64,000 nucleotides of DNA from Brachybacterium sacelli (lineage in GTDB: Bacteria > Actinomycetota > Actinomycetes > Actinomycetales > Dermabacteraceae): NCBI RefSeq assembly GCF_017876545.1, contig NZ_JAGIOD010000002.1, forward strand, positions 1,178,001-1,242,000. Direction: 5' to 3'. Made by a program: the position numbers and the translations under genes. Numbering within the stretch: the first letter of the stretch is position 1; the number at the start of each line of letters is the position of its first letter. Below the pieces are notes generated by a model that did no database searches, was not told the DNA's origin, and saw only the letters and a list, made by a program, of their open reading frames with translations. Shown here in pieces: positions 24,039-52,097 of the stretch.

Positions 24039-24083
24039 TCACGCGACCCCACGTGTAGGGCCGCTCGTGCCAGACAGGTGCAC
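24039..24083 (-). promoter_or_regulatory. Leader ORF with GTGCACCTG element before the SSB-like gene
   Basis: On the minus strand, GTGCACCTG (24075-24083) opens a 14-residue frame, MHLSGTSGPTRGVA, that stops 20 bp before the SSB-like ATG. The same element occurs upstream of several other ICE genes (see findings). Whether it is translated or acts as a DNA or RNA element is not known. Confidence 0.45.
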
Positions 24084-24101
24084 CCACCCGCCCAAACGTG
24101 G

Positions 24102-25889
24102 TCAGGAGCCCGGGCGGCGCAGCAGCGCTTCGATCTCGGCCCGGTCGGTCTTGAGCTGAGCTGCATCAGGACGCGAGGGCCAAGGACGCAGATCGGTGAC
24201 GATCGGTGGCGCAGAGCGCAGGAGGGTCACACCCGTACCGAACGGGAGCGTCCTGATCCGGTCCGGGGGCAGGATCGGCACTCGACGCACCGAACGCTGA
24301 TTCGATCGCGTCCCGTGGTCACCGAGGGTCACGCTGTCGGTGTACTCGTCGCGTTCCCCGATCAGGGTGGAGAGGTCTTGGAGGTCGCGGGAGTTGGAGG
24401 CGCCGCCGAGGATGATCTTCACGATGGAGGCGTCCCAGATCGCCCCGGCGGCGTTGTCGGACCACTTCTCCCGCGCCTGGGCGAGGGACTGTAAGACCGG
24501 GAGTGTGGTGATGCCGGTGCCGCCACCCTCGGCCATCAGCGCCGGTAGCGACGGCAACGGTGCGAGGTTGCCGATCTCATCGAGTGCCAGCAGCAGCGGT
24601 GGGTCCAGACGTGCGCCGGGTGAGCGTGCGGCGATCCGGCGGGCGGTTTCGATGAGGTCTTCGACGAACGCCGCCACGAGTGCTGCGGATGCGCCGGCTC
24701 CGGCTCCGGTGGCGAGCAGGTAGAGGGTGCCGCGCTGGCGGATGAAGGTCTCGGGGTCGAAGTCCTCGCCCGGCCGTGGTGAGACGGCGTCGAGGACGCG
24801 GGGATCGGCAAGGGCTCCGAGGGCGAGTGCGACGCCTTGCCAGATCGAGTCCCTGGTTTTGGGGTCCGAGTCGATCATCGCCCCGAGGGAGTCGGCCCAC
24901 CCTGTGGCGGCCTGGGTGGTGTTGGTGAGGATGGCGACGGCTTCGGCGGCGGCGGTGGGGTCGAGGGTCCAGCGGAACAGCTCCGCGGGTGGCCGGTGGT
25001 CCAGTGCTGCGGCGTGCAGGAGGGCTTGGAGGGCGGTGCGCGTTTTCCCTTCCCAGAACCCGCCGGATTCCACCCCGCCGCTGCTGAGCCCGGTGGTGGA
25101 GGCGAGGCCGGTGGCGCGGATCATCGCCGTTAGCGGGTCATCGCAGCCGCGGATCGGTGACCAGCGCATCCCGGCGGGGATGCCCTCGGCCAGGTGCTGG
25201 GGGTCGAACACCGCCACCGGCCGACCATCTCGCTGGCGAGCTTTGAGGGTGGCGGTGAGGTTGTCCGGCCGTGTGGATGTGGTGACGACCGCGCCGGGTG
25301 CGTCGAGGATGGCGTTGATGACCACGTGCAGGCCTTTGCCGGAGCGGGGTGGGCCGATGAGCAGGACCGAGTCCTCCACGCTCGCCCATACCTGCCTGCC
25401 CTGCGAGCGTCCGAGCAGGTAGCCCACATCGGAGGGCGTGGGCTCATCGAGCGAGGGACGCAGTGTCGCGGCCCGGCGCAGGAGTGTCTTGGCGGAGGCG
25501 GTCTGGATGACCTCGTGGGCGGTAGCGATCCCGGCCAGGCGGCGTGGGTCGGTCTCGACCTTGCGCGAGTGGCGGCGCAGCCGCACCCACACCGACCCGG
25601 CGGCCGTCGCGAGGACGGCAAGCAGGACTGCGGTCACGATCCAGTACGCGACTGGGCTCAATCCGTCGGCATCGAGCGCGGCGGCGGGTTCGGTGGGGTT
25701 GAACAGCACACCGAGTCCCGAGGCCGGCCCGGCAGTGGGTTGGGATGCGCCGGTCAGGAACGCCGCCACGCTCCCTGCGGCGCGCAGGATGAGCGCGGCA
25801 CCGAAGGCGCTGATCAGGGCGATGATGGCGGCGTTGGTCAGCTCATCGCCCAGGCTCCCGGTCTGCCGCCCCGACGCCGGTCCGGTCAT
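24102..25889 (-). CDS. TraG/VirD4-type conjugation coupling ATPase
   Basis: A 595-residue coupling protein that links the relaxase-DNA complex to the secretion channel. Two membrane helices lie near residues 20-47 and 80-103. The ATPase domain has Walker A GPPRSGKG (about residues 179-186) and Walker B LLLALDEIGNLAPLPSLPALMAEG-type sequence, with the TTLPVLQSLAQAREKW block following. The C-terminal TraG-D segment (DRIRTLPFGTGVTLLRSAPPI) is also present. It overlaps the preceding gene by 4 bp (ATGA). It is shorter than full VirD4, as usual in actinobacterial elements. Confidence 0.9.
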   Translation of the reverse strand: MTGPASGRQTGSLGDELTNAAIIALISAFGAALILRAAGSVAAFLTGASQPTAGPASGLGVLFNPTEPAAALDADGLSPVAYWIVTAVLLAVLATAAGSVWVRLRRHSRKVETDPRRLAGIATAHEVIQTASAKTLLRRAATLRPSLDEPTPSDVGYLLGRSQGRQVWASVEDSVLLIGPPRSGKGLHVVINAILDAPGAVVTTSTRPDNLTATLKARQRDGRPVAVFDPQHLAEGIPAGMRWSPIRGCDDPLTAMIRATGLASTTGLSSGGVESGGFWEGKTRTALQALLHAAALDHRPPAELFRWTLDPTAAAEAVAILTNTTQAATGWADSLGAMIDSDPKTRDSIWQGVALALGALADPRVLDAVSPRPGEDFDPETFIRQRGTLYLLATGAGAGASAALVAAFVEDLIETARRIAARSPGARLDPPLLLALDEIGNLAPLPSLPALMAEGGGTGITTLPVLQSLAQAREKWSDNAAGAIWDASIVKIILGGASNSRDLQDLSTLIGERDEYTDSVTLGDHGTRSNQRSVRRVPILPPDRIRTLPFGTGVTLLRSAPPIVTDLRPWPSRPDAAQLKTDRAEIEALLRRPGS

Positions 25890-26458
25890 GGCAGCCGCCG
25901 GACCTGGACTGTGCCTGAGACCCGGCCCAGCAGCACGACCTCCCCGGCGTCGTCGTCGAGCAGGCCAGCGAGGCGGCTGGTGTCGAGCAGGGCGCGGGCG
26001 TGACCCGTGCCGGTGGCATTGGTGTGGGCGAGGACGAGGGCGACGGCGATGTCCTCGCCGGGCACGAACCCTTCGCCGGTGACCTCCACCAGCTCCGGCA
26101 CCTGCTTGGATTTGGAGTGCTTCCCGCGCGGTTTCCTTTGCTTGGTCTCTGCGGGTTGTGGGGGTGTGGGTTTGCGGGCGTGGATGAGGTCGGTGAACAC
26201 GGTCCCGTCGCTCTCGCGGACCTCGATCCGAACCGCGACCGTGCGGTCCTTCGTGATGGCGTCCAGCAGGGCGCCGAGGGTGCCCCGCGTCCACACCTGT
26301 CCCTCAGCAGGGGCCGGGAAGGCGGCACCGTCGACGGTGACCTCCAGGGCACCGGTCTCGGTGACCGTGATGACCACATGCGGCAACACCACCGGCGGCG
26401 CATCGGGTGGCGTGTTGCGGCGGCCGCGGCGAGACGGAAGATCGGCGTTGGAACCCAT
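25886..26458 (-). CDS. Conserved ICE protein, unknown function
   Basis: A 190-residue soluble protein. The first part (VVITVTETGALEVTVDGAAF) and the LDAITKDRTVAVRIEVRESDG block look beta-rich, a basic Pro/Lys linker follows (KQRKPRGKHSKSK), and the C-terminus (VALVLAHTNATGTGHARALLD) is compact. ATG at 26458 is preferred; GTG at 26473 in the same frame adds MHLAG and coincides with the recurring GTGCACCTG element. It is coupled to the VirD4 gene by ATGA. I recognise no catalytic motif; it is a likely coupling-protein partner by context only. Confidence 0.65.
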   Translation of the reverse strand: MGSNADLPSRRGRRNTPPDAPPVVLPHVVITVTETGALEVTVDGAAFPAPAEGQVWTRGTLGALLDAITKDRTVAVRIEVRESDGTVFTDLIHARKPTPPQPAETKQRKPRGKHSKSKQVPELVEVTGEGFVPGEDIAVALVLAHTNATGTGHARALLDTSRLAGLLDDDAGEVVLLGRVSGTVQVRRLP

Positions 26459-26584
26459 ACCGGCCAGGTGCACGGGCTCTGCCCTGTGAGCACGGCCGTG
26501 TGCGAGTTCATCGGCTGGTCATCTCCGGGCCGTACCGTCAAGACCCAGGACGGCGGCACGAACAGAAGGGGCGGGTGGGTGCGG

Positions 26585-27541: not shown

Positions 27542-29035
27542 TCAGGCGGGATTCTGAACGCCGGTATAGCGCTGGTCCGTCCGGAAGAGTTCCAGCTCAG
27601 CGGGATGCAACTGGTGCTGGGTCACGAAGCTCCTGGCCTTGATCCGCCACAACCCCTGACCCACGCCGAGGGACGGGAGCAGCTTCTGCTCGGTGCCGGT
27701 CAGTCCGAGCGCGGTGGCGGTGGGGCCGAGCTGGTCGGACTCCTGCCGGTACACGATCCGCGTCTCCGCATTCGCCAACAGGCTGTTGGCGAGAGAGCGC
27801 ATCGCTGAGCCGACGTCACCGACGTTGTCCAGGTCGGAGAGCTTGTGGAAGATCAGCATGTTCGCGATCCCGTAATGCCGCGCCAGCCGCCAGTGCGCAT
27901 CCATCCGCTTCAACAACGCCGGGTGGGACATCAGCCGCCAGGCCTCGTCATAGATCACCCACCGCTGCCCACCGTTTGGGTCGAGCAGCGCTGACTCCAT
28001 CCACGCCGACGAGCAGGTCATCAGCACCGAGATGAGCGTGCTGTTCTCGGTGACCCGCGACAGATCGAGGCTGATCATCGGCAACGACGGATCGAAGGCG
28101 ACGGTGGAGGGGCCGTCGAAGAGTCCTTGGAGGTCGCCGGCAACAAGCCTGCGCAGGGCGTGTCCGACGAGCCGGCCGTCCTCTGCGAGACGCCCGCCCG
28201 TGTCGCCGGTGGGGTTGAGGATGTGGTCGACGACGGTGGGCAGGATCGGCACGTCGTTCTCCCGCACCGTGGCAGTCAACGCGAGGTCGATCGCGGTGTG
28301 CTCCAACGGCGTGAGCCCTCGCGCCAGCACCGTCTCAGCCAGCGCGCCGATGAGGTCACGGCGACGGGAGGCCACGGTCGTCTTCCACTGCTCATCGGTT
28401 AGCCCGCCGGGGCGGTGTCCTTCGTCGAGGGGGTTGAGGCGAGTGTTGAGGCCGTGGCCGAGGACGATCGCGCGTCCGCCGACTGCCTCGGCCACGGCGG
28501 TGTGTTCGCCTTTCGGGTCGCCGGGGACGTAGACGCGGCGCCCGAACGGCAGGCTGCGCGTGTAGAGGGACTTGGCGAGGGAGGACTTTCCAGAGCCGAC
28601 GATGCCAGCGAGCACCACGTTGGGTGCGGTGATGATGCCGCGGGCGTACAAGACCCAGGGGTCGTAGACGAACGATCCGCCGGAGTAGAGGTCTTGGCCG
28701 ACGAACACCCCGTCGGAGCCGAGCCCGCCTTCGGCGACGAACGGATACGCCCCCGCCAATGTCGCCGAGGTGTCCTGATGGCGCGGGAGCCGGAACCGGC
28801 CCGGTAACCTGAGCGCTGCGGGGCCGGGTTCGCCGGCGGCGGGCAGGTAGCGGGTGGCGCGGCGTTCGGCGCGCTCAGCGTCCGCCTTCGCGCGTGTGGC
28901 GGCCTTGTCGGCGGCGTCCTGCTCGACCTGAAGCCTCGCCGCTGCCTTTCGGCGCTGCTTGCGCAGCTGGCGGCGCTCCTTCGCGGGGGCGACGAGAACC
29001 GATGTGTGCAGCCGCTCCCGTTCGGCGCCGGTCAC
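27542..29035 (-). CDS. VirB4-type conjugation ATPase
   Basis: A 497-residue VirB4/TraC/ConE-type ATPase that powers pilus or channel assembly. The N-terminus is a basic coiled coil (RRQLRKQRRKAAARLQ). Walker A is GIVGSGKS at about residues 144-151, followed by YVPGDPKGEHTAVAEAVGG. Walker B is RWVIYDEAWRLM, and the C-terminal motif GLWRIKARSFVTQHQLHP is typical. It lacks the long N-terminal domain of proteobacterial VirB4; the SCO6880-family protein upstream may supply that part. The GTG start overlaps the preceding gene by 4 bp. Confidence 0.9.
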   Translation of the reverse strand: MTGAERERLHTSVLVAPAKERRQLRKQRRKAAARLQVEQDAADKAATRAKADAERAERRATRYLPAAGEPGPAALRLPGRFRLPRHQDTSATLAGAYPFVAEGGLGSDGVFVGQDLYSGGSFVYDPWVLYARGIITAPNVVLAGIVGSGKSSLAKSLYTRSLPFGRRVYVPGDPKGEHTAVAEAVGGRAIVLGHGLNTRLNPLDEGHRPGGLTDEQWKTTVASRRRDLIGALAETVLARGLTPLEHTAIDLALTATVRENDVPILPTVVDHILNPTGDTGGRLAEDGRLVGHALRRLVAGDLQGLFDGPSTVAFDPSLPMISLDLSRVTENSTLISVLMTCSSAWMESALLDPNGGQRWVIYDEAWRLMSHPALLKRMDAHWRLARHYGIANMLIFHKLSDLDNVGDVGSAMRSLANSLLANAETRIVYRQESDQLGPTATALGLTGTEQKLLPSLGVGQGLWRIKARSFVTQHQLHPAELELFRTDQRYTGVQNPA

Positions 29036-30267
29036 AGCGACAACCCCCGCGGGGAACCGGTGGAAGCGCTGGCTGGGCCGGCGTACCAGTCTCGGTCCGG
29101 GCCGAGGGCAGCGCCCCGGGCAGCCGACGCATCACGAGCCGGTGCGGGGTCCCGGTGTGGCTGCTCGTTGACGACCGCCGAGGGCGGCCGCTCGACCTCG
29201 TGCAGTGCGGGGTCTGGTGGGGTGTCGAACTCGCGGTACAGGCCCACATGCCCCAGGGCGTGGTTGTAGGTCAGCGCGTACCCCGCGGCAGTGACGGTCC
29301 GGTCGGTGCCGCTCGCTGGCGGCTGGTCGTCGTGGACGTAGCCGTTCTCCAACGCCGCGGCGGTGGTCTCGTCGCCGTAGTCCCAACTCTTGAGGTTTTC
29401 GATGGCGGCGTCGGCGCCGTCGCGGTCGATCAGATCGAGCATCGCATCGGCCTCCTCGCCCTGGAGGAAGGCCACGTCGAGCCAGCGCCTCCCCACCTGC
29501 GCGGGTCCGGCGACGCGCCCGGTGGGGTCGTGCTCGATCAGCTCGGCCAGGGCGTCCGTGCTGATGCGTGCGGCCTCGGCCACCCACGCCGGGAACAGAC
29601 CCTCGTGCTCCGGGCTGCTGCCGGGATGGTCGAGTGCGTACTGGCGAGCCTCACCCGCCGCGCTCAGGAAGGTCGCGAGGTCACGGAACGCGCGGTTGGG
29701 GTCGACGGGGGTGCCGGCGCCGGTGAACAGGTCTCGGCCCGCCACTGCTTCGCCGGTACTGGTGTCGGCGATCCGGTAGGCGTAGCGCTGATGCTCACCC
29801 ACCGGCGCATCCGGCAACACCGTCAACGCGAGCGACCCCGCCTGCACGGTCGTGGTCGCGGGGTCGCCACGGAGCCGGGCGGCCAGCCGTTCTCGGGCGG
29901 CGTCTCGGTCGACGACCGGTTCGGGGTGCCAGGCGATCCTCCCGGAGTGGGAGAACGCCGTGTCGAGCCGGTCGTAAGCCTGATCGAGCAGCGTGCCGGC
30001 CTGGTGCAGCTCATCGGCCGCAGCCAGCGCGGACGTCGCGCCCGCGGCGGGGTTGCCGTCATCGTCGAACGCCCGATCCCGCGCGTTCAGGTGGGTGGTG
30101 GCGAGGTGGTCGAGGATTTGACGCAGCGACCGAACCCCCGCTACGAGGTCACCAAACACCCGGTAGGTGTCGGCCGGGTCATCGAACACGCGGGAGGCGT
30201 GGGCCAGGCCCCGCAGCGCCTCGGAGGCTTCGGCCGCATCAGCGAGCGGGTCGTGGAAGGTGGGCAT
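29032..30267 (-). CDS. ICE protein between virB4 and SCO6880 genes
   Basis: A 411-residue acidic, Ala/Asp-rich soluble protein. Residues 1-110 are helical (EALRGLAHASRVFDDPADTYRVFGDL, DELHQAGTLLDQAYDRL). The region near residues 140-170 (TVQAGSLALTVLPDAPVG) looks beta-rich, and the C-terminus is disordered and ends SPRGLSL. GGAGG lies 6 bp before ATG 30267. It is found with virB4 in actinobacterial elements, but no enzymatic motif was recognised. A leader with a strong hairpin precedes it. Confidence 0.7.
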   Translation of the reverse strand: MPTFHDPLADAAEASEALRGLAHASRVFDDPADTYRVFGDLVAGVRSLRQILDHLATTHLNARDRAFDDDGNPAAGATSALAAADELHQAGTLLDQAYDRLDTAFSHSGRIAWHPEPVVDRDAARERLAARLRGDPATTTVQAGSLALTVLPDAPVGEHQRYAYRIADTSTGEAVAGRDLFTGAGTPVDPNRAFRDLATFLSAAGEARQYALDHPGSSPEHEGLFPAWVAEAARISTDALAELIEHDPTGRVAGPAQVGRRWLDVAFLQGEEADAMLDLIDRDGADAAIENLKSWDYGDETTAAALENGYVHDDQPPASGTDRTVTAAGYALTYNHALGHVGLYREFDTPPDPALHEVERPPSAVVNEQPHRDPAPARDASAARGAALGPDRDWYAGPASASTGSPRGLSL

Positions 30268-30298: not shown

Positions 30299-30332
30299 GA
30301 GGGGCGAGCCCGGCAGTTCGGGCTCGCCCCTC
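30299..30332 (-). promoter_or_regulatory. Perfect 14-bp hairpin in the leader of the 411-residue gene
   Basis: Bases 30299-30312 and 30319-30332 are perfectly complementary around a 6-nt loop (GCAGTT as read on the plus strand). It lies between the GTGCACCTG element (GTG at 30340) and the gene start at 30267. It could end the upstream T4SS transcript or act as an attenuator. The short frame from 30340 (MHLRGEPELPGSPLS...) passes through the hairpin, so ribosomes on it would melt the structure. Confidence 0.6.
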
Positions 30333-30389
30333 AGGTGCACGCACCACGCCACCGCCTTGACTGGGTCGGGGGCCGGCGCCTGTGCGCGA

Positions 30390-33363: not shown

Positions 33364-33705
33364 TCAGACCTGCTGGCCGACGTCCCAGAAGAAGTTGATC
33401 AACGTGACGCTGGCGCCACAGATCACGGCGGCACCGCAGGAGACGAGGACGCCGATCTTGCCCCGGCCGGCGAGGTGGGGGTTGCTGGAGTTGGCGCCGA
33501 AGCCCCACACGATCGCGCTGATGATCAGGGCCAAGACGCTGAGGATGAGACCGATGGTCATCACCGCGCCGACGATCGTGCGCAGCTGGCTAATGCCCGG
33601 CAGTCCCGTGTCGTTGGGGTCGATGGTGATATCCATCGGCAGCACCACCGGCCACGTTGTGGCGGCAGCGGAGGTGGTTTCGGTGATCAGGCTCAGGACG
33701 GTCAT
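33364..33705 (-). CDS. Pilin-like two-TM conjugation protein, copy 1
   Basis: A 113-residue protein with an extracytoplasmic N-terminal part and two membrane helices (about residues 48-70 and 88-106), ending FFWDVGQQV. Shape and place match the DUF6112/VirB2-like proteins of actinobacterial transfer systems. It is paralogous to the next upstream protein, which ends LIDLGQQI. AAGGAG lies upstream of the ATG. A 19-residue leader ORF overlaps its start by 4 bp. Confidence 0.78.
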   Translation of the reverse strand: MTVLSLITETTSAAATTWPVVLPMDITIDPNDTGLPGISQLRTIVGAVMTIGLILSVLALIISAIVWGFGANSSNPHLAGRGKIGVLVSCGAAVICGASVTLINFFWDVGQQV

Positions 33706-33761
33706 GGCGGGGTGCTCCTTCGGGCATCGGCGAGATGGGGGTTCTCGCCGACCAGGTGCAC
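33702..33761 (-). CDS. Putative coupled leader peptide MHLVGENPHLADARRSTPP
   Basis: GTG at 33761, part of the recurring GTGCACCTG element, opens a 19-residue frame whose TGA overlaps the ATG of the pilin-like gene as ATGA. The Shine-Dalgarno of the downstream gene (AAGGAG) lies inside this frame. That arrangement suits translational coupling. There is no direct proof that it is translated, and no clear ribosome-binding site of its own was seen, which would fit a leaderless transcript. Confidence 0.45.
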   Translation of the reverse strand: MHLVGENPHLADARRSTPP

Positions 33762-33813
33762 CGCCCGCCCCACACAGTCGAAGCCGATGAGGGGTCCGCT
33801 GGTGGGGCGGGGT

Positions 33814-34080
33814 TCAGATTTGCTGGCCGAGGTCGATCAGCCAGTTCAACCACGCCACCCCACCGCCGGCCAAGACCGCGGCACCCAGGGCGGTCCAGGC
33901 GCCGATCCTGGCTTTGGTGGCGGCGGCGTGGTGGCCGTTCGCGGTCGACAGTGCCCACACGATGGCGCAGACGATCAACATCAGCACGGCGATGATAAGC
34001 ACGAAGGTCAGCAGGGCACCGATGACCTCGCGCAGGTCACCGATGCCACCGAGGCCGTCGAAGTCGGGAAACACATCCAT
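33814..34080 (-). CDS. Pilin-like two-TM conjugation protein, copy 2
   Basis: An 88-residue paralogue of the downstream 113-residue protein, with helices at about residues 20-43 and 62-80 and the shared ending WLIDLGQQI. The N-terminus MDVFPDFDGLGGIGDLREVIGA matches DPNDTGLPGISQLRTIVGA of copy 1. It is the first gene of the transfer block reading leftward from the divergent region 34081-34195. Two related small subunits may form a mixed pilus or channel. Confidence 0.75.
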   Translation of the reverse strand: MDVFPDFDGLGGIGDLREVIGALLTFVLIIAVLMLIVCAIVWALSTANGHHAAATKARIGAWTALGAAVLAGGGVAWLNWLIDLGQQI

Positions 34081-34106: not shown

Positions 34107-34152
34107 GCAATTATTCGAAGCGTTCGAAATGTCCATGCTGACGAGGTGCGTC
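34107..34152. repeat. Direct repeat A with two TTCGAA sites
   Basis: An imperfect repeat of about 45 bp shared with 34672-34715. It contains ATTCGAAGCGTTCGAAAT, two TTCGAA palindromes, and ends with the recurring GAGGTGCGT element (34143-34151). It lies between divergent genes (34080 leftward and 34196 rightward), a good place for an operator. Confidence 0.6.
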
Positions 34153-34195
34153 GGCCGTGTCGGGTGGTCGACTGGGCAGCGGTTAGCGTTGAAGT

Positions 34196-34671: not shown

Positions 34672-34715
34672 GCAAGTATTCAAGACGTTCGAAATCCACG
34701 TCATTCAGGTGCGTC
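34672..34715. repeat. Direct repeat B, partner of 34107-34152
   Basis: GCAAGTATTCAAGACGTTCG and the following bases match repeat A with a small gap, ending in CAGGTGCGT (34706-34714). One of the two TTCGAA sites is degenerate here. The repeats flank the phosphatase gene in direct orientation, as left by a duplication or an insertion of that gene. Confidence 0.6.
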
Positions 34716-34849
34716 AGTCCCTCCCCGAAGAGATCGCTCAGAGGGTTGGGGACATCCGGCGCCCCGCTCCGATGACGCCGATAGCCTTCCTAAACCCCTT
34801 GCCGTCCACTACCTAGTAGTTCGACGGTGCTGGCACTGCGATTCTCCCA

Positions 34850-37637: not shown

Positions 37638-38327
37638 CTACTGGAGGGGGTTGTCGAGCTGGGACAGCCGCAGCAGATGACAGGTCTCGTAGGTCGGGCC
37701 GCAGACCACGAAGATCGTGAACGCCACCGAGTGCTCGGAGGTCACCGGTTCGTCATTCCACAGGCCCGCACGGTGGCGGGTGCCCTCGATCGTGACCGCG
37801 ACCGTGCCCTCGGCAAGCTGACCCGGCTGCGCCTGCTCCACAGCCGTCGCCCACGCGTCAGGGACGAACGTGTTGTCGATGGTGAGGTGCTGGGTGGTGG
37901 CGTACTGCCGCAGCTCCAGCCAGGCATCCCGGCTCGGGAGGTAGGCGGCGATGTCGGAGGCGAGCCCGGCCTGCTCCGTACCGGTGGGGTCGCCGACGTC
38001 GAGGACCACGCTGGTGTAGTCCAGGGGCATGAATCCGCTGGCAGTGTCCCACTCGAACAGTACGGTGGCGACGTTGCGTACGAAGGCCTGCGGATCATCC
38101 GACGCCCGCACTACCGGCAGCCGCGGTGTGGCCGTGGGCACCGGATCGGACGGCGCGGTGACACTCGGCTCAGGGCGGCCACCATCATCGTCCCGGTCCG
38201 GACTGGGCGGTCCGACCAGGAGGCCGTAGACGCCCACAGCGGCCAGTACGAGGACGACGACCGCCGCGGTGAGGGCGGCGATGAGTCGGCGGCGGGTCCG
38301 GGGGTCGGAGAGGTCGGGAGTCTTCAT
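37638..38327 (-). CDS. One-TM conjugation protein (VirB8/TcpC-like position)
   Basis: A 229-residue protein with a short cytoplasmic N-terminus, one membrane helix at about residues 15-38 (LIAALTAAVVVLVLAAVGVYGLLVG), a Pro/Asp-rich linker and an extracytoplasmic domain of about 150 residues. The topology is that of VirB8/TcpC-like channel proteins, but I see no decisive motif. It is 14 bp upstream of the M23 hydrolase gene. ATG 38327 is used; an in-frame GTG at 38354 adds MVAGAHLVG, again the recurring element. Confidence 0.7.
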   Translation of the reverse strand: MKTPDLSDPRTRRRLIAALTAAVVVLVLAAVGVYGLLVGPPSPDRDDDGGRPEPSVTAPSDPVPTATPRLPVVRASDDPQAFVRNVATVLFEWDTASGFMPLDYTSVVLDVGDPTGTEQAGLASDIAAYLPSRDAWLELRQYATTQHLTIDNTFVPDAWATAVEQAQPGQLAEGTVAVTIEGTRHRAGLWNDEPVTSEHSVAFTIFVVCGPTYETCHLLRLSQLDNPLQ

Positions 38328-38377
38328 GCCCACCAGGTGCGCACCCGCCACCAACGGAGGTAGAGGGAGGGTGACCG

Positions 38378-39391
38378 TCAGAGGGCGCGTAGATGGGCGC
38401 GAGCCGGCACTGGCTCATCGTCAGCGGCGTCGCGGTCGCGCAGGGTGCGCAGTTCCTCGGCGAAGCGGCTGGTGCCCTCGGCAGTGGTCAGGAAGGACTC
38501 GATCTGCTCATCGCTCAGCTCAGAGGCGAGATGTTCGACGTCGTAGTGGGTCCACCACTGGTCCAGCTCGCCCCAGGTCAGTACGAACGCCCGCACCGGG
38601 TACTGGGCGGGTTCGCCCTTGTTGTCGGTGACCGGTCGGGGCCGTGGCGGGCGCTTACCGGTCTTCGTTTGCTTGGCGCGGGCGAGGGCGTCGGCGGCGA
38701 GCTGATGCAGGTCGATCTCGCGTTCTGCCTGCGCGCTCTGGGCGGCGGCGCGGATCGCCTCAAAGATCGGATGCACGGGAGCGCCAGCGTCGATGCGCTC
38801 CAGCTCAGCGCTCACCTGTGCTCGGAGTTCGGCGGGTTGGGCGGGGTCTTCGGCGATCTTCTGGAGGTAGCCGATCTTCTCCAGCGTCGTGTGCGAGGCA
38901 CCGCCGGGGATCATCGCTGCCGCTTGTTGACGTGCCTCGCCCAGTGCTCCTGACGGTCCCGCAAAATTTGCGGGACCGTCAGCGCCGGGTTGGTTCTGGG
39001 CACTGAACTGGGTGGCTGCCTTCCTGCGGTCGGCGTCCTCGGCCATCAACACCCGAAGTTCGCGGTAGAGGGCGGCGGCCTCGGTCTGGGTCAGCGGCTT
39101 GTGCAGGACATTGTCGTCCTGCTCGGCCAGCAGGTGTCCGAGGCGGTCGGAGATGCCTGAGCGGACCCAGACGTTGACCTTGCGCCAGCCGAGCTTCTTG
39201 ATCGCCGCTAGCCGGCGCGCCCCGCACACCAGCACTCCGTCGGGGGTGATGGTGATCGGCTGCAACAACCCGTCCCGCTCGATCGAGGCGGCGAGTCCGT
39301 CGATGTCGCCGAACGCGGTGCGGTGCCGGCGCCCGACCCGGATCGAGTCGACGGCGCGCTCCAGCTCGATGTAGCCCGCCGGTGCGGTCAT
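38378..39391 (-). CDS. ParB/Spo0J-like nuclease-fold protein
   Basis: A 337-residue protein. Residues 10-110 are a ParB N-terminal domain (IRVGRRHRTAFGDIDGLAASIERDGLLQPITI, VCGARRLAAIKKLGW), with the GxRR CTP-binding motif. A helix-turn-helix-like region follows (LTQTEAAALYRELR). No parA gene lies beside it, so a role in replication or transfer regulation of the element is more likely than classical partition. The stop of the next upstream gene overlaps its ATG by 4 bp. Confidence 0.85.
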   Translation of the reverse strand: MTAPAGYIELERAVDSIRVGRRHRTAFGDIDGLAASIERDGLLQPITITPDGVLVCGARRLAAIKKLGWRKVNVWVRSGISDRLGHLLAEQDDNVLHKPLTQTEAAALYRELRVLMAEDADRRKAATQFSAQNQPGADGPANFAGPSGALGEARQQAAAMIPGGASHTTLEKIGYLQKIAEDPAQPAELRAQVSAELERIDAGAPVHPIFEAIRAAAQSAQAEREIDLHQLAADALARAKQTKTGKRPPRPRPVTDNKGEPAQYPVRAFVLTWGELDQWWTHYDVEHLASELSDEQIESFLTTAEGTSRFAEELRTLRDRDAADDEPVPARAHLRAL

Positions 39392-40281
39392 GACCGATCA
39401 CCGCCAGGGTGGTCGTGGTGGCCGGGTGCGGCCAGGGAGATGGTCAGGATGAGGTCGTCGTCGCGCAGCAGTACCGGCAGGGTCTCGCCGATCAGCAGTC
39501 GCAGCAGCACACCCCGCCCAGCGGTCGTGGCGGAGTAGGCGGGGTGGGGGTTGCCCAACAAGGCGCGCAGCAGCGCGGTCCACGAGGAACGCGGGATGTC
39601 CAGCAGGGCGCGGGCGTGCTTGTCCCGGCGCAGTGCCTCGTAGGCGGCCTGGCGGGTGCCGGTCTTGGTCAGCGCGCCGCAGACATGCTCGACCCCGGCC
39701 CGGGCGGTGGCCGGGTCCCAGCCCAGCAGTGTGAACAGGGCGATGACGTCCTCGGCCGCGGACCCGGCGGACATGCACGCCCGATCCGAGCCGCGGCCAC
39801 CATCGGAGCCTGACCCGGTGGCGTCCATCTCCGCGTCGGCGTCATCGTGGGGGTCGGTCATGTGGAAGGCGGGGTGGTAATCGGTCAGCGGGTTCTCCCG
39901 GTCGGAGAACCGCTCGGGGTCGTGGAACGCCGAGACGTGCGGGCGCCTCGCTTGGTGGACCGAGCAGAGCAGTCCTTGGGCGCGTTCCTCGAAGATGCAG
40001 GTGATCCGCACCCCGTGGGTGACCATCGCCCACGGGTCATCGGCCCGCCGCGTGGAGGCGTACTGCATGGCGTCGAACGCCGCCGTTGCTGCCTCCCACG
40101 GGTCCAGGCCGTGCTTGCGCGCCAGCGGGGTGTACTTCTCCGCGGCGTAGGCCATCAGCTCGCGTGCGGCCGGGTCGGAGGCCCAGGCTCCCTCACCAGC
40201 CTCGTGCAGCCGGTTCAGCAGGGCACGCAGGCCCTCACCGGTGGTGAAGTCTGCGCCGTCGTGGTTTGTTGTGGTGGTCAT
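39388..40281 (-). CDS. ICE protein, unknown function (297 residues)
   Basis: A 297-residue protein starting MTTTTNHDGADF. The first 120 residues are helical (LRALLNRLHEAGEGAW, WEAATAAFDAMQYASTRRADDPWAMVT) and recall the helical style of sigma-like proteins. A Asp/Gly/Ser-rich linker near residues 145-165 and a helical C-terminal domain follow (RQAAYEALRRDKHARALLDIP). No catalytic motif was recognised. It overlaps parB by 4 bp, and they are surely co-expressed. Confidence 0.65.
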   Translation of the reverse strand: MTTTTNHDGADFTTGEGLRALLNRLHEAGEGAWASDPAARELMAYAAEKYTPLARKHGLDPWEAATAAFDAMQYASTRRADDPWAMVTHGVRITCIFEERAQGLLCSVHQARRPHVSAFHDPERFSDRENPLTDYHPAFHMTDPHDDADAEMDATGSGSDGGRGSDRACMSAGSAAEDVIALFTLLGWDPATARAGVEHVCGALTKTGTRQAAYEALRRDKHARALLDIPRSSWTALLRALLGNPHPAYSATTAGRGVLLRLLIGETLPVLLRDDDLILTISLAAPGHHDHPGGDRS

Positions 40282-40287: not shown

Positions 40288-40683
40288 TCACCTGTTCATC
40301 CCGACACTGGAGCGCACCGGCCCCGTGGGGCTGGTGCCGCTGCGGCCGAAGGCGGACAGCGGCGGCAACCGGCGCGCCCGGTCGGCGAGGTCGTGGGCAC
40401 GGTTCGCGATCGGGGCGCGGGCGCGGCGGGCCAGCTCGGCCTCGAAGTCGATACCTCGCCCCGACAGCGTCGCCCCGTGCCGAGCGATCAGGTCCGTGGG
40501 CCGCACCCACTCCACACCCCGCGCCAGCCTCTCGTGTCCGGGCGTATCGTGGTCGCCGTTTCGGCGGACGTGGGCGGCTTCCACCGCATCCGGCGTACTG
40601 GTCGCATCGACCGACTCCCGCTCGCCTTCGTGCTCAGGGGTCGGCCGTCGCCGCTCGTGTTGTTCGTGTGGGTTCCCGTTCAT
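40288..40683 (-). CDS. Small hydrophilic ICE protein
   Basis: A 131-residue charged, largely disordered protein beginning MNGNPHEQHERRR. A possible structured segment is WVRPTDLIARHGATLSGRGIDFEAELARRAR. The ATG overlaps the DUF2637 stop (ATGA), and its stop is 6 bp before the next gene. The coupling on both sides supports it as real, but no family was recognised. Confidence 0.6.
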   Translation of the reverse strand: MNGNPHEQHERRRPTPEHEGERESVDATSTPDAVEAAHVRRNGDHDTPGHERLARGVEWVRPTDLIARHGATLSGRGIDFEAELARRARAPIANRAHDLADRARRLPPLSAFGRSGTSPTGPVRSSVGMNR

Positions 40684-41426
40684 CGGGTCGCCTCCTCACC
40701 ATCGTTGCTGTCAGGAAGGTGCGCACCGGCGAACCAGCGCCCGACCGTGGACGGGTGCACGCCGAGTTCGCGGGCGATGCGCTTGTTCGACCAACCCACC
40801 CGGCGCAGCTCGGCCGCCCGGTTCCTGCGCTCCAGAGCTGCTGTGGCTGTAGAGGTGTCGGGCACGTTCGCGCCCGCCCCATGTGCGAAGTCGTCGGCAC
40901 GACGTGGCGCCGTCAGCTCTCGCGGCTGCGACGGCTCCGGCGCGTCGCGGACTGCACGGCTCGGCGTCGCGAGGCCGGGTGAGGCCTCATCGGGACCTGC
41001 TGTGCCGGGAGCGGGGCGGGTGAGGATGACGGTCAGGTGGGTGATCGCCAGCAGCACTACCGGCGGCACCGCCGCCACCGACGCGGCCAGCACACCAGGC
41101 ACATCGGCATCGGCGGCCACGACGGCGTGGATCGCGTTGGCGGTCACCGAGACCGCGGCACCGCCGATCAGCAGCACCCACGGATACCACGCCGTCTTCT
41201 GCCCGGCGAGGGCGACGACGGCGACGGTGGCCACGACGATGATGCCGTCCACGATCAACGGCCACGCCCACGCCTGCCCCGCACCGACACCGCTTCGGGC
41301 CGCGAGGTCCGCCAGCGCGGTGAAAGACAGCCAGAAGGCGCCGGCGGCGATGAACACCGTCCCGGACACCGCTGTCACCACCGCCCACCGGCGACTTGCC
41401 GTCCTGCTTGCGAACGGGGTGGTCAT
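40680..41426 (-). CDS. DUF2637 membrane protein with C-terminal HTH
   Basis: A 248-residue protein with four membrane helices in residues 10-135 (AVVTAVSGTVFIAAGAFWLS, WAWPLIVDGIIVVATVAVVAL, WVLLIGGAAVSVTANAIH, and a last one), matching DUF2637, a family of actinobacterial plasmid and ICE proteins. A C-terminal helix-turn-helix follows (RRVGWSNKRIARELGVHPSTVGRWFAG). DNA-binding at the membrane, as in spread or regulatory functions, is inferred. The ATG shares bases with the primase stop (TGATG). Confidence 0.82.
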   Translation of the reverse strand: MTTPFASRTASRRWAVVTAVSGTVFIAAGAFWLSFTALADLAARSGVGAGQAWAWPLIVDGIIVVATVAVVALAGQKTAWYPWVLLIGGAAVSVTANAIHAVVAADADVPGVLAASVAAVPPVVLLAITHLTVILTRPAPGTAGPDEASPGLATPSRAVRDAPEPSQPRELTAPRRADDFAHGAGANVPDTSTATAALERRNRAAELRRVGWSNKRIARELGVHPSTVGRWFAGAHLPDSNDGEEATR

Positions 41427-42382
41427 CACAGCCCCCGCACACTCGACGGTCCGGTTGACGGGCGGGCGGGGTCACGGCTGAACCAGCCGTCCGCGGCCAG
41501 CCGCGACTCCCCGAGTACCGACGACGACGATGGGTCTCGTCGGGCGGGTTCGCCGCGGACGGTGCGGTAGGCGGACCGGACCGTGGCGGTGATCTCTCGC
41601 GGTCCGAAGTCCGACTTCGCTGCCGTCAGCACGGCATCGAGGGCATCAGTGAGCGGGACGCCGCCCTCGGCGAGACGGCAGGACGCCCAAAACAGCTTCA
41701 GGTTGCGGTCGGTGTCCTGCCGGTCCAGCCACGCCGCCAACCGCTGCGCATCTTCCCGGCCCACCGGCCGCCAGGTCTTGGGCCGCGGGCGAGGTGCGGG
41801 GCGGGGGTCGAGGAAATCCCGCAGCGCGTCGGAGTCCAGCAGGCCAGTCCGGCCGGTGTTGACCTCTTCGACCCGGTAGCCGACCGTGGTGCCCTCGATG
41901 GAGCGGGTAGATGGCGGGACGATGATGTAGCCGCCGTCGCCGCGGAAGTCGATCCCGGCGCGCCCGGCCTGCCACGACCGCTGCTCCGTACCGGGTCTCG
42001 CCGGGTAGTAGGCGTGCAGTCCGCCGGTGGGCGTGCGCACCAACAGCTCCCACCCGTCCACCAGCCCGGCGCGGTGGGCGCGGTCGAAGCTGGTCCGGCC
42101 GTCGACCGGGCCGTGCACATCCACATCCACCACGACCGTGCCCGAGGCGGCGCCGGTCGGGACGCCGATGTTCGCGCCCGGTGACTGCCGCCACCACGCC
42201 TCGATCTGATCCAGGTTCGTGGTGGCGTCGTGGAAGCCGTGTTCGGTGGCCGGCCGCTTCCCCCACGGTGCGCAGGGGAAGACCGGCACCCCCGCGGCGG
42301 CGAACTCCCGCGCGGCCGCCGACAGCGGCCACGCCCCGCTCATCCGAAGCAGCACCGAGGAGACCGCACCGTGCTCGGCCAT
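41426..42382 (-). CDS. Bifunctional DNA primase/polymerase
   Basis: A 318-residue archaeo-eukaryotic-type prim-pol. The N-terminus (AAREFAAAGVPVFPCAPWGKRPATEHGFHDAT) and catalytic VVVDVDVHGPVDG with the two metal Asp residues are diagnostic. A conserved His motif follows (GGLHAYY). The C-terminal 120 residues are a helical PriCT-like domain. It lacks a helicase domain. It probably primes the transferred strand or supports autonomous replication of the excised element. Translation is coupled to the ArdC gene upstream (TGATG). Confidence 0.9.
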   Translation of the reverse strand: MAEHGAVSSVLLRMSGAWPLSAAAREFAAAGVPVFPCAPWGKRPATEHGFHDATTNLDQIEAWWRQSPGANIGVPTGAASGTVVVDVDVHGPVDGRTSFDRAHRAGLVDGWELLVRTPTGGLHAYYPARPGTEQRSWQAGRAGIDFRGDGGYIIVPPSTRSIEGTTVGYRVEEVNTGRTGLLDSDALRDFLDPRPAPRPRPKTWRPVGREDAQRLAAWLDRQDTDRNLKLFWASCRLAEGGVPLTDALDAVLTAAKSDFGPREITATVRSAYRTVRGEPARRDPSSSSVLGESRLAADGWFSRDPARPSTGPSSVRGL

Positions 42383-43494
42383 CACAGCCCCCGCCCGTCG
42401 AGCGCCGGCACCGGGACGGGGCGCACACCTGGTTCAAGCAACGACGCCACCTGCCGCAACGGGGCCGGTTCCGGTACCGGTTGTACGTCAGCGGGTGTCT
42501 CGCGGTTGGCCGCGTCCCGGTCCAAACCGGGCGGAGCGCCGTCACCGACCTGCGCGGTGTCGAGCGGGTCCAGGATCGCTAGGGCGGTCTTGCGGACCCG
42601 TTCCCCGGTGGCCTTGACGAGTTCGACCGGCTCTTTCCCGTCGACGCGGGCCGCCCAGGTGGAGACGTACGGGATCGTGTAACCGCTGGTGTCCATCCCG
42701 TGGGCGGCGCCGATCATCAGCGCGACGGACTCGGCTTCGACTTCTCCGATGCCGCGATGCTGACGGGCCGCCTCTGCGTCGGGGCCGTGCAGGAGGACGT
42801 GGCCGAGTTCGTGGGCGAGGGTCTTGACCTGGGCGGCGGGGTCCATGTTCTCCCGCACCGCCACGGTGTTCGCGGTGTAGTCGGTCATCCCGTTCGCGCC
42901 GTGGATCATGCCCTCGTGCGGCACCCGCAGCACCGCGAACCCGGCCGCCTCGACCTGCGCGGCCAGCCCGTCCCACAGCCCGGCGGGCGCTTCGCCTTCC
43001 AGCAGGCGCGGTACCGGTGGTTCGGGGATCGGGTCGCCGGTGGTCTGGGAGGCGTCCCACACATACGCCGGACGGACGCCCACCATCTTGGAACGCACCA
43101 CCTCACCAGCACGCGGCCTCTCACCCTTCCCCAGACGGCGCCACGAGTCCGCATCCGCAGGGTCGGCCGAGGCGAACCTGCCGGTCACGGGCGCCAGAAT
43201 CTGATAGCCGGGCTGGCCCTTCTCCACTTGCCGCCCGAGGGCCTGCCACTGCTTGTAGCCGGCCACATACGACGGGAACGGCTCCGGCACCCGGCCCTGC
43301 TCATAGGCACCCTGATGCTGCACCCAGATCAGCAGGGTGTTGTTGAAGCTCCTGGACCGGAACCGGGCCGCGAACGCCAGCGCCCTTGCCCAATCCGGGC
43401 CGGACACGAGCCGTTCGACCGCGCCGGTCAGCTTCTCGTGCAGTTCGTCAAGCTTCGCCTCCCGCGCATGGCGGGCCTCCTGCCTCGTTGCCAT
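42382..43494 (-). CDS. ArdC-type antirestriction/metallopeptidase protein
   Basis: A 370-residue protein. Residues about 10-130 match the ArdC N-terminal ssDNA-binding domain (FAARFRSRSFNNTLLIWVQ, GYKQWQALGRQVEKGQPGYQIL). A zinc peptidase-like domain with HELGHVLLH near residue 235 and downstream Glu (EVEAESVALMIG) follows, then a disordered tail. ArdC proteins protect incoming ssDNA from restriction in other elements. GGGAGGAGG precedes the ATG by 10 bp. The gene starts the primase operon. Confidence 0.88.
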   Translation of the reverse strand: MATRQEARHAREAKLDELHEKLTGAVERLVSGPDWARALAFAARFRSRSFNNTLLIWVQHQGAYEQGRVPEPFPSYVAGYKQWQALGRQVEKGQPGYQILAPVTGRFASADPADADSWRRLGKGERPRAGEVVRSKMVGVRPAYVWDASQTTGDPIPEPPVPRLLEGEAPAGLWDGLAAQVEAAGFAVLRVPHEGMIHGANGMTDYTANTVAVRENMDPAAQVKTLAHELGHVLLHGPDAEAARQHRGIGEVEAESVALMIGAAHGMDTSGYTIPYVSTWAARVDGKEPVELVKATGERVRKTALAILDPLDTAQVGDGAPPGLDRDAANRETPADVQPVPEPAPLRQVASLLEPGVRPVPVPALDGRGL

Positions 43495-43746
43495 CTGCTC
43501 TGGCCTCCTCCCGACATAGACCGCGCCCAGCAGAGGGCGGCGGTGCACCAACGAGGTGCGCCAGGAGAACCAGCAGGTATGTCGAGACGGTGAGCGGACT
43601 ACGAGGTCGGTAGGTTGGCCGTCAGGAGAACTCGTGGTGCGCCTGACGTAGGACATACCGGCCTACCGGGAATCTCGAGCCATCTGGGGTTCGGGGCCGG
43701 GATGCTCCCGATATCCCGCTCGTGATGCTCAGATCGGGACCGGCGT
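43495..43746. other. Upstream region of ardC, downstream of araC-like gene
   Basis: No gene was seen in these 252 bp. It contains the recurring element (GAGGTGCGC at 43553-43561, reading toward the ArdC gene) and presumably the promoter of the ArdC-primase operon. The AraC-type gene from the right ends at 43747. Confidence 0.5.
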
Positions 43747-48124: not shown

Positions 48125-48322
48125 TCAGCCGTCGCCTGATGGCACCAGATAGCCCGAGTCCGACAAAGCGCAGTTACTCTTGCGCCCCCACGGTGTACTT
48201 TCCTCCACGTAGTAGCGCGTGAGCGGCGTCGACAGCGAGCGGTCTCCATCGGCCGCGGCGACAGAGCGCAGGAGGTGCTTGTAGCCGTCGCCGGCGCTCA
48301 TCACCCGCATCGGGACCGTCAT
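48125..48322 (-). pseudogene. MobF relaxase N-terminal fragment, minus strand
   Basis: From ATG 48322 the frame encodes MTVPMRVMSAGDGYKHLLRS and continues to TRYYVEESTPWGRK before leaving homology, 65 residues in all. It is nearly identical to residues 1-45 of the full relaxase at 52098, including the catalytic YY pair. The rest of the relaxase is missing. It is a truncated copy left by recombination. Confidence 0.85.
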
Positions 48323-48420
48323 ACAGGGCAGGCGAGCGCCCACCATCGCCCCGTACGCATCGGCCGACTCACGGCCTCTGATCGGCGGTATCATCAGTTG
48401 ACTCGGGCGGCTGTCGAGCG

Positions 48421-48770
48421 GTCGTCGAGTTCCTAGGCGGCGGTTGCAGCGTTTCGATCGCTGCCGCCATGTGCGACTACAGCCCCGAGCAGGGTGCCAG
48501 GCACGAGGCCGGCCTGCTTGCTTGCCCACGGTCGGTCGGACATGCTGGCAAGGTAAGCCCCTGCAGAGGATGTCACCGACGGGATACGGCCAGTCGATGG
48601 TGATGACGTCACCGAGATTCTGTGCGTCAGGCCAGTGGTGAGCGAACACGCGGGCGAACCGGTTCGTTGACCTCGGAGAACCCAACGGTCTCGGCATTGA
48701 AGACGTGTTAGACGGCGAGGTCGAGGCCGCCGCATCCGGAGAACAGCGACCCGCAGCCGGCGGTCGGGCG
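48421..48770 (-). pseudogene. Decayed C5-cytosine DNA methyltransferase
   Basis: Reading the minus strand in changing frames gives SLFSGCGGLDLAV, stop, HVFNAETVGFSEVNEPV, frameshift, ARVFAHHWPDAQNLGDVITI, then ILCRGLPCQHV with the catalytic PCQ, and after further shifts GL-stop-SHMAAAIETLQP. These are the SAM-binding motif I and motif IV of Dcm-type enzymes, in order. A TAA, a TAG in place of a Trp and at least two frameshifts make it inactive. It lies upstream, on the same strand, of the relaxase fragment at 48125. Confidence 0.82.
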
Positions 48771-49006
48771 AAGGGCTGGTGTCGTACATGAGGGCGCTCC
48801 GGCAGTTCAGCGACCCCGGACCCGAACCCCCCAGAGGGGTCCATTCACCGGACTGAACACTTGCCAGGTGCACGGCCCTCCGCCCACCATGACGAGCACG
48901 GACGCACTCCTGGTCTTGAAGCCGCCGCTAGGCGACCACGGAGCCGACCCCGGCCCGCCCTCTTGACCACCTCCCCTCAAAGCTGCCACGCGTCTTGCAG
49001 GTCGAG

Positions 49007-49028
49007 GCCGTCAACCTAGGTTGACGGC
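49007..49028. repeat. Perfect 22-bp palindrome
   Basis: GCCGTCAACC followed by TA and GGTTGACGGC is fully self-complementary. It contains TTGACG on both strands, lies 53 bp upstream of the plus-strand relaxase fragment, and could be an operator or a remnant of a transfer origin. No second copy was seen in the window. Confidence 0.6.
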
Positions 49029-49080
49029 GCGTTCGCGCGGTCGTCGCCCGCTCACCTGACCACCGAAAGGCGGTGGCGCG

Positions 49081-49230
49081 GTGACGGTCTCGATGCGCGT
49101 GATGTCGGCGGGTGATGGCTATAAGTACCTGCTGCGCACGATCGCGGCCGCGGACGGTGACCGCGAGCTGTCAACACCGCTGACGAGGTACTACGCGGAG
49201 GCGGGAACGCCGTGGGGGGAGCAAAGGTAG
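49081..49230 (+). pseudogene. MobF relaxase N-terminal fragment, plus strand
   Basis: GTG at 49081 opens MTVSMRVMSAGDGYKYLLRT and the frame ends after RYYAEAGTPWGEQR with TAG, 49 residues. It matches the first 45 residues of the relaxase at 52098 but differs from it and from the minus-strand copy at several positions, so it is not a recent duplicate. It has the YY pair but no helicase or His-triad region. Confidence 0.85.
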
Positions 49231-50736: not shown

Positions 50737-50965
50737 CCCCCAACGCCCCGCCCCCACCTCGAACCAGCCGGAGACCTCGCAGAAGTGGGCGCCGTGGTGG
50801 ATCTATCTGATCGTGCTGCTCGGCGCCAACTACCTGCGCGCCTTGGTCCTGCCGGGCGACTCGCTGCCGCTGCCGGCGACCGTGGCGATCGCCGTCGGTC
50901 AAGCGGCCGTGCTGTTCGTGATCGTCACCGCGATCTGGCGCCTCACCCGGCGCGGCGAAGAATGA
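50729..50965 (+). CDS. Small two-TM membrane protein
   Basis: A 78-residue protein with helices at about residues 22-44 (WAPWWIYLIVLLGANYLRALV) and 49-70 (LPATVAIAVGQAAVLFVIVTAIW) and a basic end. AAGGAG precedes the ATG inside the TetR gene. It overlaps both neighbours, part of a four-gene coupled chain. No family recognised. Confidence 0.75.
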   Translation: MTDPQRPAPTSNQPETSQKWAPWWIYLIVLLGANYLRALVLPGDSLPLPATVAIAVGQAAVLFVIVTAIWRLTRRGEE

Positions 50966-51024
50966 ACGGACACACCATGACTCGTGTACGAACCAAACGA
51001 TCCGCACCGGGAGCGTCGTCGTGA
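50962..51024 (+). CDS. 20-residue coupled ORF between membrane-protein genes
   Basis: ATG 50962 overlaps the previous stop (ATGA), and its TGA (51022-51024) overlaps the GTG of the next gene. The product starts MNGHTMTRVRT and is basic. It may exist only to carry ribosomes from one gene to the next; a coding function is unproven. Confidence 0.4.
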   Translation: MNGHTMTRVRTKRSAPGASS

Positions 51025-51647
51025 TCGCGGCGATCATCGCCGCCGAGGTCGCGTTCTGGGTGCTGCTGCTCGCCGGGCTCGCGCTGCGCTACCTTGTCCG
51101 TGCGAGGCGCCTGAGCACCCTTGTGCTCGCCGCCGTGCCGCTGGTCGACCTCGCGCTGCTGGTCCTCGTCGCGGTCGACGTGATGCGCGGCTCCCCGCCG
51201 ACACGGCCGCACGCGTTCGCGGCTCTGTACCTGGGCATCACCGTAGCCTTCGGCCACCACATCATTCAGCACACCGACGCATGGTTCCGGTACCGCTTCG
51301 CGGGCGGACCGAAACCACTCAAGGCACCCAAGGGCTCGACTGCCGAAGTCCGCGCGATCTGGCGTGAATGGTTCCGCGTCGTGCTCGCCGCGGCCCTCGG
51401 CGCAACCTGCCTGCTGGTCATGATCGCACTCGAAGGATGGCACCTGCCCGCCAGCGTCGACGACGCCGCCGGCCATCCCTACTGGGCCACCCTGTTGCTC
51501 CTGCCGATCATCACCGCAGTCTGGTTCCTCGCCGGACCCGCCTTCGCAGGACGCGGCGACCCCGCACGCGATCGACAGCCCGCAACCCCCACCGACGCAA
51601 CATCCCTGACCCTTCACGAACCGAGAGCTGGAGCCGAGCGGCCATGA
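51021..51647 (+). CDS. Polytopic membrane protein, unknown
   Basis: A 208-residue protein with about five hydrophobic helices (residues 2-26, 35-55, 67-85, 116-137 and 150-172) and a disordered Pro/Arg-rich tail. A conserved-looking HHIIQHTDAWFRYRF stretch lies between helices 3 and 4. GTG start overlapping the 20-residue ORF; the stop overlaps the next gene (ATGA). The family was not recognised. Context: a TetR-controlled accessory operon. Confidence 0.75.
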   Translation: MIAAIIAAEVAFWVLLLAGLALRYLVRARRLSTLVLAAVPLVDLALLVLVAVDVMRGSPPTRPHAFAALYLGITVAFGHHIIQHTDAWFRYRFAGGPKPLKAPKGSTAEVRAIWREWFRVVLAAALGATCLLVMIALEGWHLPASVDDAAGHPYWATLLLLPIITAVWFLAGPAFAGRGDPARDRQPATPTDATSLTLHEPRAGAERP

Positions 51648-51961
51648 GCGACCTGGGAAGATTCGTGGAGCAGCGCATCGCCGAGAACACCCTGCCGCCA
51701 TCTGTCCAACGCGCCTACCAGACGATCTACGCGCTCAGCGACACGATCCGCGCCGATGGCAAGACCAACGACTGGGTCTCCTGGCTGACCGGAACCTCCG
51801 CCGCCGTGATAGTCGGCGAGTACATCCTCGGCGCCGACCCAGCCAGCGACGCCACACGCATCAGCGAGACCCTCAGAGCCACGCTGGCCCGCACCTGGCA
51901 CGAACACCCCGACTACGACGACACCTGGAACGACCTCGCCCCCGACCCGAATCCTCGATAA
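51644..51961 (+). CDS. Small soluble hypothetical protein
   Basis: A 105-residue protein starting MSDLGRFVEQRIAENTLPPS, with a helical pattern and an Asp/Pro-rich end. ATG 51644 overlaps the preceding stop (ATGA). It is the last gene of the TetR-led operon. About 135 bp without a gene follow before the relaxase start. Confidence 0.65.
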   Translation: MSDLGRFVEQRIAENTLPPSVQRAYQTIYALSDTIRADGKTNDWVSWLTGTSAAVIVGEYILGADPASDATRISETLRATLARTWHEHPDYDDTWNDLAPDPNPR

Positions 51962-52097
51962 CTGACAACGACCACGGACTACGGCCCGAAACGCTGCTGC
52001 GAGTCGCCTGTCGACCACAGCGGTGATCCCGGGGGCTTCACCTGGCCATGTCGCCTTCGGCGGCGATACGTCCATGGAGCGAGCGCACCTCACCGGC

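Follow-up and report, generated by a model that had tools for sequence, protein, structure and literature searches.

A promoter-like element before the transfer genes of a family of actinobacterial integrative and conjugative elements and its candidate sigma-like reader

Copies of the element in the window

The stretch of DNA analysed here, referred to as the window, comprises 64,000 nucleotides of the Brachybacterium sacelli contig NZ_JAGIOD010000002.1 (positions 1,178,001 to 1,242,000) and is part of a 4.87 Mb genome in two contigs. A type IV secretion-type integrative and conjugative element (ICE) occupies 20.5-56 kb of the window and codes for a serine recombinase, the single-stranded DNA-binding protein SSB, a TraG-type coupling protein, a VirB4-like ATPase, SCO6880 and SCO6881 family proteins, two DUF6112 proteins, an M23 peptidase, a ParB-N-like protein, an SpdB-type DUF2637 protein with a helix-turn-helix (HTH), a primase-polymerase, an ArdC-like protein and a MobF relaxase. 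A short element with the core GYGCACCTS stands before several of these genes, and we propose that it is a promoter, probably read by the ICE-encoded protein g297. The host genome carries two more ICEs of the same family, in which the element is found at several of the same genes.

An earlier note on this DNA had listed 11 places of the element, all of which could be read back in the sequence. Exact copies of GYGCACCTS are present at eight of them, namely at 24075, 26465, 30332, 33753, 38334, 43553 and 48865 on the minus strand and at 52083 on the plus strand; the copies at 34143 (ACGCACCTC), 34706 (ACGCACCTG) and 49050 (GCTCACCTG) carry one mismatch. The two spacings that had been described to the start codons were also found: the ATGs at 26458, 38327 and 52098 lie 15 nt away, those at 24018, 30267, 33705, 34080 and 43494 56-73 nt. 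The bare 9-mer is not significantly enriched in the window (10 copies versus a mean of 6.29, with 8 of 100 shuffles reaching 10), and two of the ten copies (156 and 6140) fall outside the ICE. It is the position, orientation and conservation of the element, not its copy number, that go beyond chance.

The sites of the window were scored with a profile whose training set includes them, using a threshold of 13. The element before the SSB gene (24068-24094, minus strand, from T-26 to the proposed +1; score 28.0) contains an exact GTGCACCTG at 24075-24083, and the gene, starting with ATG 24018, would have a 50-nt leader with a Shine-Dalgarno (SD) sequence. Upstream of the coupling protein gene, an element at 26458-26484 (minus strand, score 21.7) precedes a 195-aa open reading frame (ORF), which was counted from GTG 26473; ATG 26458 is the proposed +1, and the mRNA would be leaderless. 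The gene at 29035-30267 is preceded by an element at 30325-30351 (minus strand, score 22.4) and a leader with a hairpin and an SD, and the DUF6112 gene at 33367-33705 by an element at 33746-33772 (minus strand, score 25.0), again with a leader. The second DUF6112 gene (33817-34080) follows the weak element ACGCACCTC (34136-34162, minus strand), which stays below the profile threshold and has the ATG of a 10-codon ORF at its proposed +1. The similar weak element ACGCACCTG (34699-34725, minus strand), also below the threshold and with a 14-codon ORF whose GTG coincides with the proposed +1, is perhaps a remnant. The 229-aa gene g229, whose ATG 38327 would be the +1 of a leaderless mRNA, is preceded by an element at 38327-38353 (minus strand, score 26.3), and the ArdC-like gene (42385-43494) by one at 43546-43572 (minus strand, score 19.4) and a leader with an SD.

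On the plus strand, the element at 52072-52098 (score 16.6) precedes the relaxase gene, which was identified by the TrwC relaxase and MobF models and would be transcribed without a leader from ATG 52098. A further element (48858-48884, minus strand, score 14.2) is located near the gene 48128-48844 and beside a truncated copy of the 5' end of the relaxase gene (49081-49230, plus strand), which is itself preceded by the weak element GCTCACCTG (49039-49065, plus strand). The truncated duplicate is flanked by divergent elements (48858-49230), and the segment between it and the intact relaxase gene at 52098 may be an insertion near a possible origin of transfer. The variant GCGCACCTT is found at 40716-40724 on the minus strand, inside the end of the SpdB gene, where it encodes the residues AHL. 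It may be the promoter of g131 (40288-40683, minus strand), a conserved gene between SpdB and g297; the variant is present in the window and in the ICE stretches G000a and G000b, and G009 has the form GCGCACCTC.

The extended element and its conservation in related ICEs

Relatives of the ICE were found via DUF6112 (PF19607), which matched 11 of 47 genomes of the host family (E up to 0.001) and 42 of 396 genomes in an order-level search (E up to 1e-12). The stretches around many, not all, of these matches were taken, resulting in 43 ICE stretches including the window. An alignment of 25 near and 88 far unique sites revealed the full element TGGG-N7-GYGCACCTG-NYN-G-N-Y-R at either spacing. As a site was classed as near only if a start codon stood at +15 from the first G of the core, the letters of near sites at +15 carry no evidence. 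Far sites, which were selected without a start codon at this position, keep the Y at +14 in 90% and the R at +15 in 91% of cases.

Exact sense copies were counted near the starts (-130 to +40) of orthologues of ten gene classes (SSB, the 195-aa ORF, g29, both DUF6112 genes, g229, g297, g131, ArdC and MobF) and were found for 120 of 296 orthologues, compared to 4 antisense copies. These include 18 of 26 orthologues of SSB, 7 of 25 of the 195-aa ORF, 11 of 22 of the gene at 29035-30267, 21 of 42 of the DUF6112 gene at 33367-33705, 19 of 33 of g229, 21 of 35 of g297 and 11 of 28 of the ArdC-like gene. For eight other classes (the type IV coupling protein, VirB4, SCO6880, SCO6881, M23, ParB, SpdB and the primase-polymerase), 7 of 252 orthologues had an exact sense copy and 3 an antisense copy; in the window, genes of these classes mostly overlap the preceding gene or lie within about 30 nt of it. 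The counts leave aside orthologues with an unaligned N-terminus or at a contig end as well as the recombinase and g239, and the two DUF6112 queries can match one gene.

A g297 search was evaluated for the best 80 of 411 loci, which are named and belong to many actinobacterial genera. For the 64 loci outside the initial set, some of which are duplicates, an exact sense copy precedes g297 in 46 cases and an antisense copy in none, and 56 score at least 13. Among the loci with an element before g297 are representatives of Brachybacterium, Brevibacterium, Rhodococcus, Gordonia, Dietzia, Nocardioides, Microbacterium, Kocuria and others. A further set of 59 non-duplicate loci (1.13 Mb), unused in building the profile, was obtained by removing loci that shared an exact 200-base match with the training set or with one another, a filter that may leave close relatives. 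In this set, there are 234 sense and 37 antisense copies of the exact 9-mer, with a shuffle expectation of 46 per strand, and the 29-base profile has 201 sense matches above a score of 15 and a single antisense match. The extended pattern gave 27 matches in the 47 genomes, 9 in the fetched ICE stretches and 18 elsewhere, versus 22 for a reversed control, which indicates that outside the ICEs it occurs at background level. The element is biased to the sense strand, both in the relatives and in the 59 loci, and recurs before the same genes, and the earlier claim of a regulatory element shared by different genes of the ICE is supported by these orthologue counts and this strand bias.

Three ICE stretches (G244, G147 and G408) have neither g297 nor the element. 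In these, GGTGCCCCC stands just upstream of mobF in 3 of 3 and of DUF6112 in 2 of 3 cases; in the other 40 stretches (1.36 Mb), the two strands contain 5 and 9 copies of it. This hints that GGTGCCCCC is perhaps a parallel, second private promoter code of a sister clade.

Start-codon register and a putative promoter

For the 234 exact sites of the 59 loci, the offsets of any ATG peak at +15 with 53 cases, with 6 at +14 and 1 at +16. Fourteen ATGs at +28 include g297 starts like those in further g297 loci. A second group of 17 ATGs is found at +9 in the same loci, corresponding to GYGCACCTSATG, and is unexplained. ORFs of at least 60 codons start between +13 and +17 in 60 of the 201 profile sites (50 at +15, 7 at +13 and 3 at +14); the same count at four shifted positions gave 12, 16, 8 and 16. 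None of these 60 starts is preceded by an SD-like 5-mer, a result which the fixed letters of the element make partly certain, and for 118 of the remaining 141 profile sites, a start with an SD before it is found within 130 nt. The proposed mRNA of g297 would, for many of the leaders, open with AGGAGGTGCC, the SD itself, and g229 orthologues carry the element in either arrangement, near or far. Actinobacteria translate leaderless mRNAs well. A start codon that is locked to one base of the element and lacks an SD fits a leaderless mRNA beginning at this base, and a promoter with its +1 at the final purine would unite the two spacings described in the earlier note. Based on these sequence comparisons, we infer that the element is a promoter and that transcription starts at the final purine, 15 positions from the first G.

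Counted from this +1, the promoter would have the layout T-26 G G G ... G-15 Y G C A C C T G-7 N Y N G N Y-1 R+1 and would form a class private to one family of actinobacterial type IV secretion ICEs. Where the ATG or GTG of a gene coincides with the +1 base, a leaderless mRNA would be made; where it does not, the mRNA would have a leader, mostly of 10-60 nt, with an SD. Many transfer cistrons without coupling to their predecessor (SSB, DUF6112, ArdC, the relaxase and others) have such a putative promoter in front, and the transfer genes may thus form one regulon. The g297 protein, encoded in the same operon, would read these promoters, with its region-2-like N-terminal domain recognising the -12 box, and as g297 itself is preceded by the element in most relatives, it could activate its own expression by positive feedback.

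A different view would be that the transfer genes are controlled at the RNA level, by a protein or small RNA bound to GYGCACCUG in the leaders between cistrons. Several element sites indeed lie in short intercistronic gaps of apparent long operons, many far sites are followed by stable hairpins, and the element and the SD of g297 leaders are complementary. However, RNA explanations expect the element to be inside the transcript, whereas at near sites the ATG is locked to +15 without an SD; moreover, the best-scoring column pairs over 114 sites reveal no covarying helix in a fixed register, and the ICEs contain few antisense copies, which, as judged by eye, are not at conserved places. Rfam at gathering thresholds found only a tRNA in the window. 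An anti-terminator, as suggested earlier, or another RNA element is not supported by the comparison in fixed register, and we regard an RNA-level signal as rather improbable. The leader peptide M-H-L-x-G, which had also been considered, or an attenuator finds some support in near sites, where the frame is open into the gene, but M-H-L-x-G is the element itself read in frame, and a spacing of 15, being divisible by three, brings this frame into agreement with the gene. The second base of GYG is a C in about half of the sites (51% of far and 56% of near sites), and translation does not start at GCG, which practically excludes a leader peptide; the far sites of the window also have no common reading frame, and this explanation is extremely unlikely. 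The consensus of sigma-54 (RpoN) promoters is GG-N10-GC at -24/-12, and the logo of the element contains GG and GC at this spacing and position. Nevertheless, the -12 box of the element is longer and different, running on to CACCTG, and Sigma54_DBD (PF04552) was found in 0 of 47 host-family genomes, compared to 4 of 14 control genomes, so that we give a sigma-54 promoter hardly any credence. Lastly, a GC-rich genome could contain such a GC-rich 9-mer by chance. This would agree with the copy number in the window, which as such is not enriched, but with neither the strand bias nor the conservation of the element in relatives, and the probability of this explanation is close to nil.

Candidate readers of the element

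The unannotated 297-aa protein g297 is encoded at 39388-40281 on the minus strand, and its end is overlapped by the gene for the ParB-N-like protein (38378-39391, minus strand). In the window, g297 has no element at its start and begins 6 nt past the stop codon of g131. According to AlphaFold models and structure comparisons, the predicted N-terminal domain resembles sigma region 2, and VIA rows 1-29 are all sigma or transcription-initiation entries; the structure matches include a phage sigma-like factor and a complex of T4 gp55 (7d7c). The C-terminal domain (residues 165-297; 39391-39789, minus strand) is helical and conserved in the family; predicted alone, it reached a pLDDT of 87 and a pTM of 0.80, and it was compared structurally after this separate prediction. 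The second box of the putative promoter would lie at -26, not -35. We propose that g297 is a highly divergent sigma-like factor, which would bind RNA polymerase and is most likely the reader of the element. Several results limit this assignment. The Foldseek E-values for the N-terminal domain are not significant, no sigma model matched 28 g297 members in Pfam (E up to 10) or 100 members in NCBIfam (E up to 1), and alignments of g297 with 18 extracytoplasmic function sigma factors using hhalign were insignificant. In addition, g297 is not singled out by its distribution among 33 ICE stretches with a length of 30 kb or more, in which elements above a score of 15 were counted with a profile trained on this set: at least two elements are present in 24 of 30 stretches with g297 and in 0 of 3 without, but ParB and g229 share the same distribution. 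The distribution of the element is matched equally well by the SpdB-type HTH protein, which is encoded in the same operon, with at least two elements in 24 of 27 stretches with SpdB and in 0 of 6 without; for an AraC-type regulator, the numbers are 20 of 23 and 4 of 10.

The SpdB-type protein (40680-41429, minus strand) consists of a DUF2637 membrane part and a conserved C-terminal HTH, which is matched by Pfam HTH models and, by eye, seems to be better conserved than the rest of the C-terminal tails. Its motif GWSNKxIARxLGVHPSTVGRW is strikingly conserved over genera, and the protein is possibly a membrane-anchored partner of the transcription system. The element could be an operator or promoter read by another ICE protein, foremost the SpdB HTH, alone or as the region-4-like partner of g297 in a split sigma factor. 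SpdB discriminates slightly better than g297 because three stretches (G257, G255 and G308) have g297, no SpdB found and at most one element. Some CACCT-containing sites remain before genes there. However, an HTH regulator alone would not explain why start codons are fixed at a single base of an element that lies in core-promoter position. The ICEs without SpdB are also few and their g297 proteins divergent (52, 38 and 35% identity), an argument that is weakened by G151a, in which g297 is equally divergent (37%) and seven elements are present. Furthermore, the strict HTH motif matched only 60 of 79 loci, and the counts depend on the search mode. We consider this explanation, which is the main rival to ours, unlikely. 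An ICE-wide promoter element that is read by the ICE-encoded, sigma-like g297 and defines its own regulon remains the best explanation, one that we hold with moderate confidence.

A two-subunit sigma factor is known from B. subtilis, where region 2 and region 4 functions are divided between the two proteins SigO and RsoA. This would be a precedent for a split between g297 and the SpdB HTH, although the SpdB partner would be membrane-anchored. The phage factors of the T4 gp55 type serve other hosts and promoters. The gp55 protein and phage sigma-like factors are small and have a region-2-like part, as is predicted for g297, but g297 has a further domain and was not found in 50,697 phage records. 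SetCD activates ordinary promoters, whereas the element described here is in core-promoter position; in both cases the regulator of transfer is, or would be, ICE-encoded. For the SXT/R391 ICEs, SetCD is described as an ICE-encoded transcription factor activating transfer (PMC4344509). Similarly, a study on the B. subtilis plasmid pBS32 describes the experimentally studied SigN (ZpdN), a plasmid-encoded sigma factor that activates its own expression and is tied to cell death following DNA damage (PMC6751061). SigN and g297 are alike in being encoded on mobile elements and, as proposed for g297, self-activating; unlike SigN, g297 has no sigma profile match, belongs to chromosomal ICEs and would act on putative promoters before conjugation genes. 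In the sections available, regulators of Pra, KorSA, XRE and GntR types are given for the actinomycete ICEs of Frankia (PMC3218068), and ParB, SSB and a proposed single-stranded DNA transfer for a Brevibacterium ICE (PMC6579920); these sections mention no sigma factor for either.

Just past the relaxase gene of the window, a patatin-like phospholipase is encoded beside a DncV-like (SMODS) nucleotidyltransferase (55694-57789, plus strand). The pair looks like the effector and synthase of what we take to be a CBASS-type defence system.

Taken together, it is conceivable, if still tentative, that a large family of actinobacterial ICEs has its own initiation system, composed of a region-2-type domain and a substitute for region 4, perhaps with help from the SpdB HTH, and directed to GC-rich promoters with boxes at -26/-12 instead of -35/-10 and often leaderless mRNAs. 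The presence of GGTGCCCCC at matching places in the clade without g297 suggests that each ICE clade may have evolved its own private promoter code. In the passages of the literature that we consulted, we found no description of how these chromosomal conjugative elements of Actinobacteria turn on transfer. If our proposal holds true, g297 would be a sigma-like factor that is missed by current profiles and acts on promoters unlike the -35/-10 type, and a private promoter class together with a candidate initiation factor would make the question of how transfer is switched on testable.

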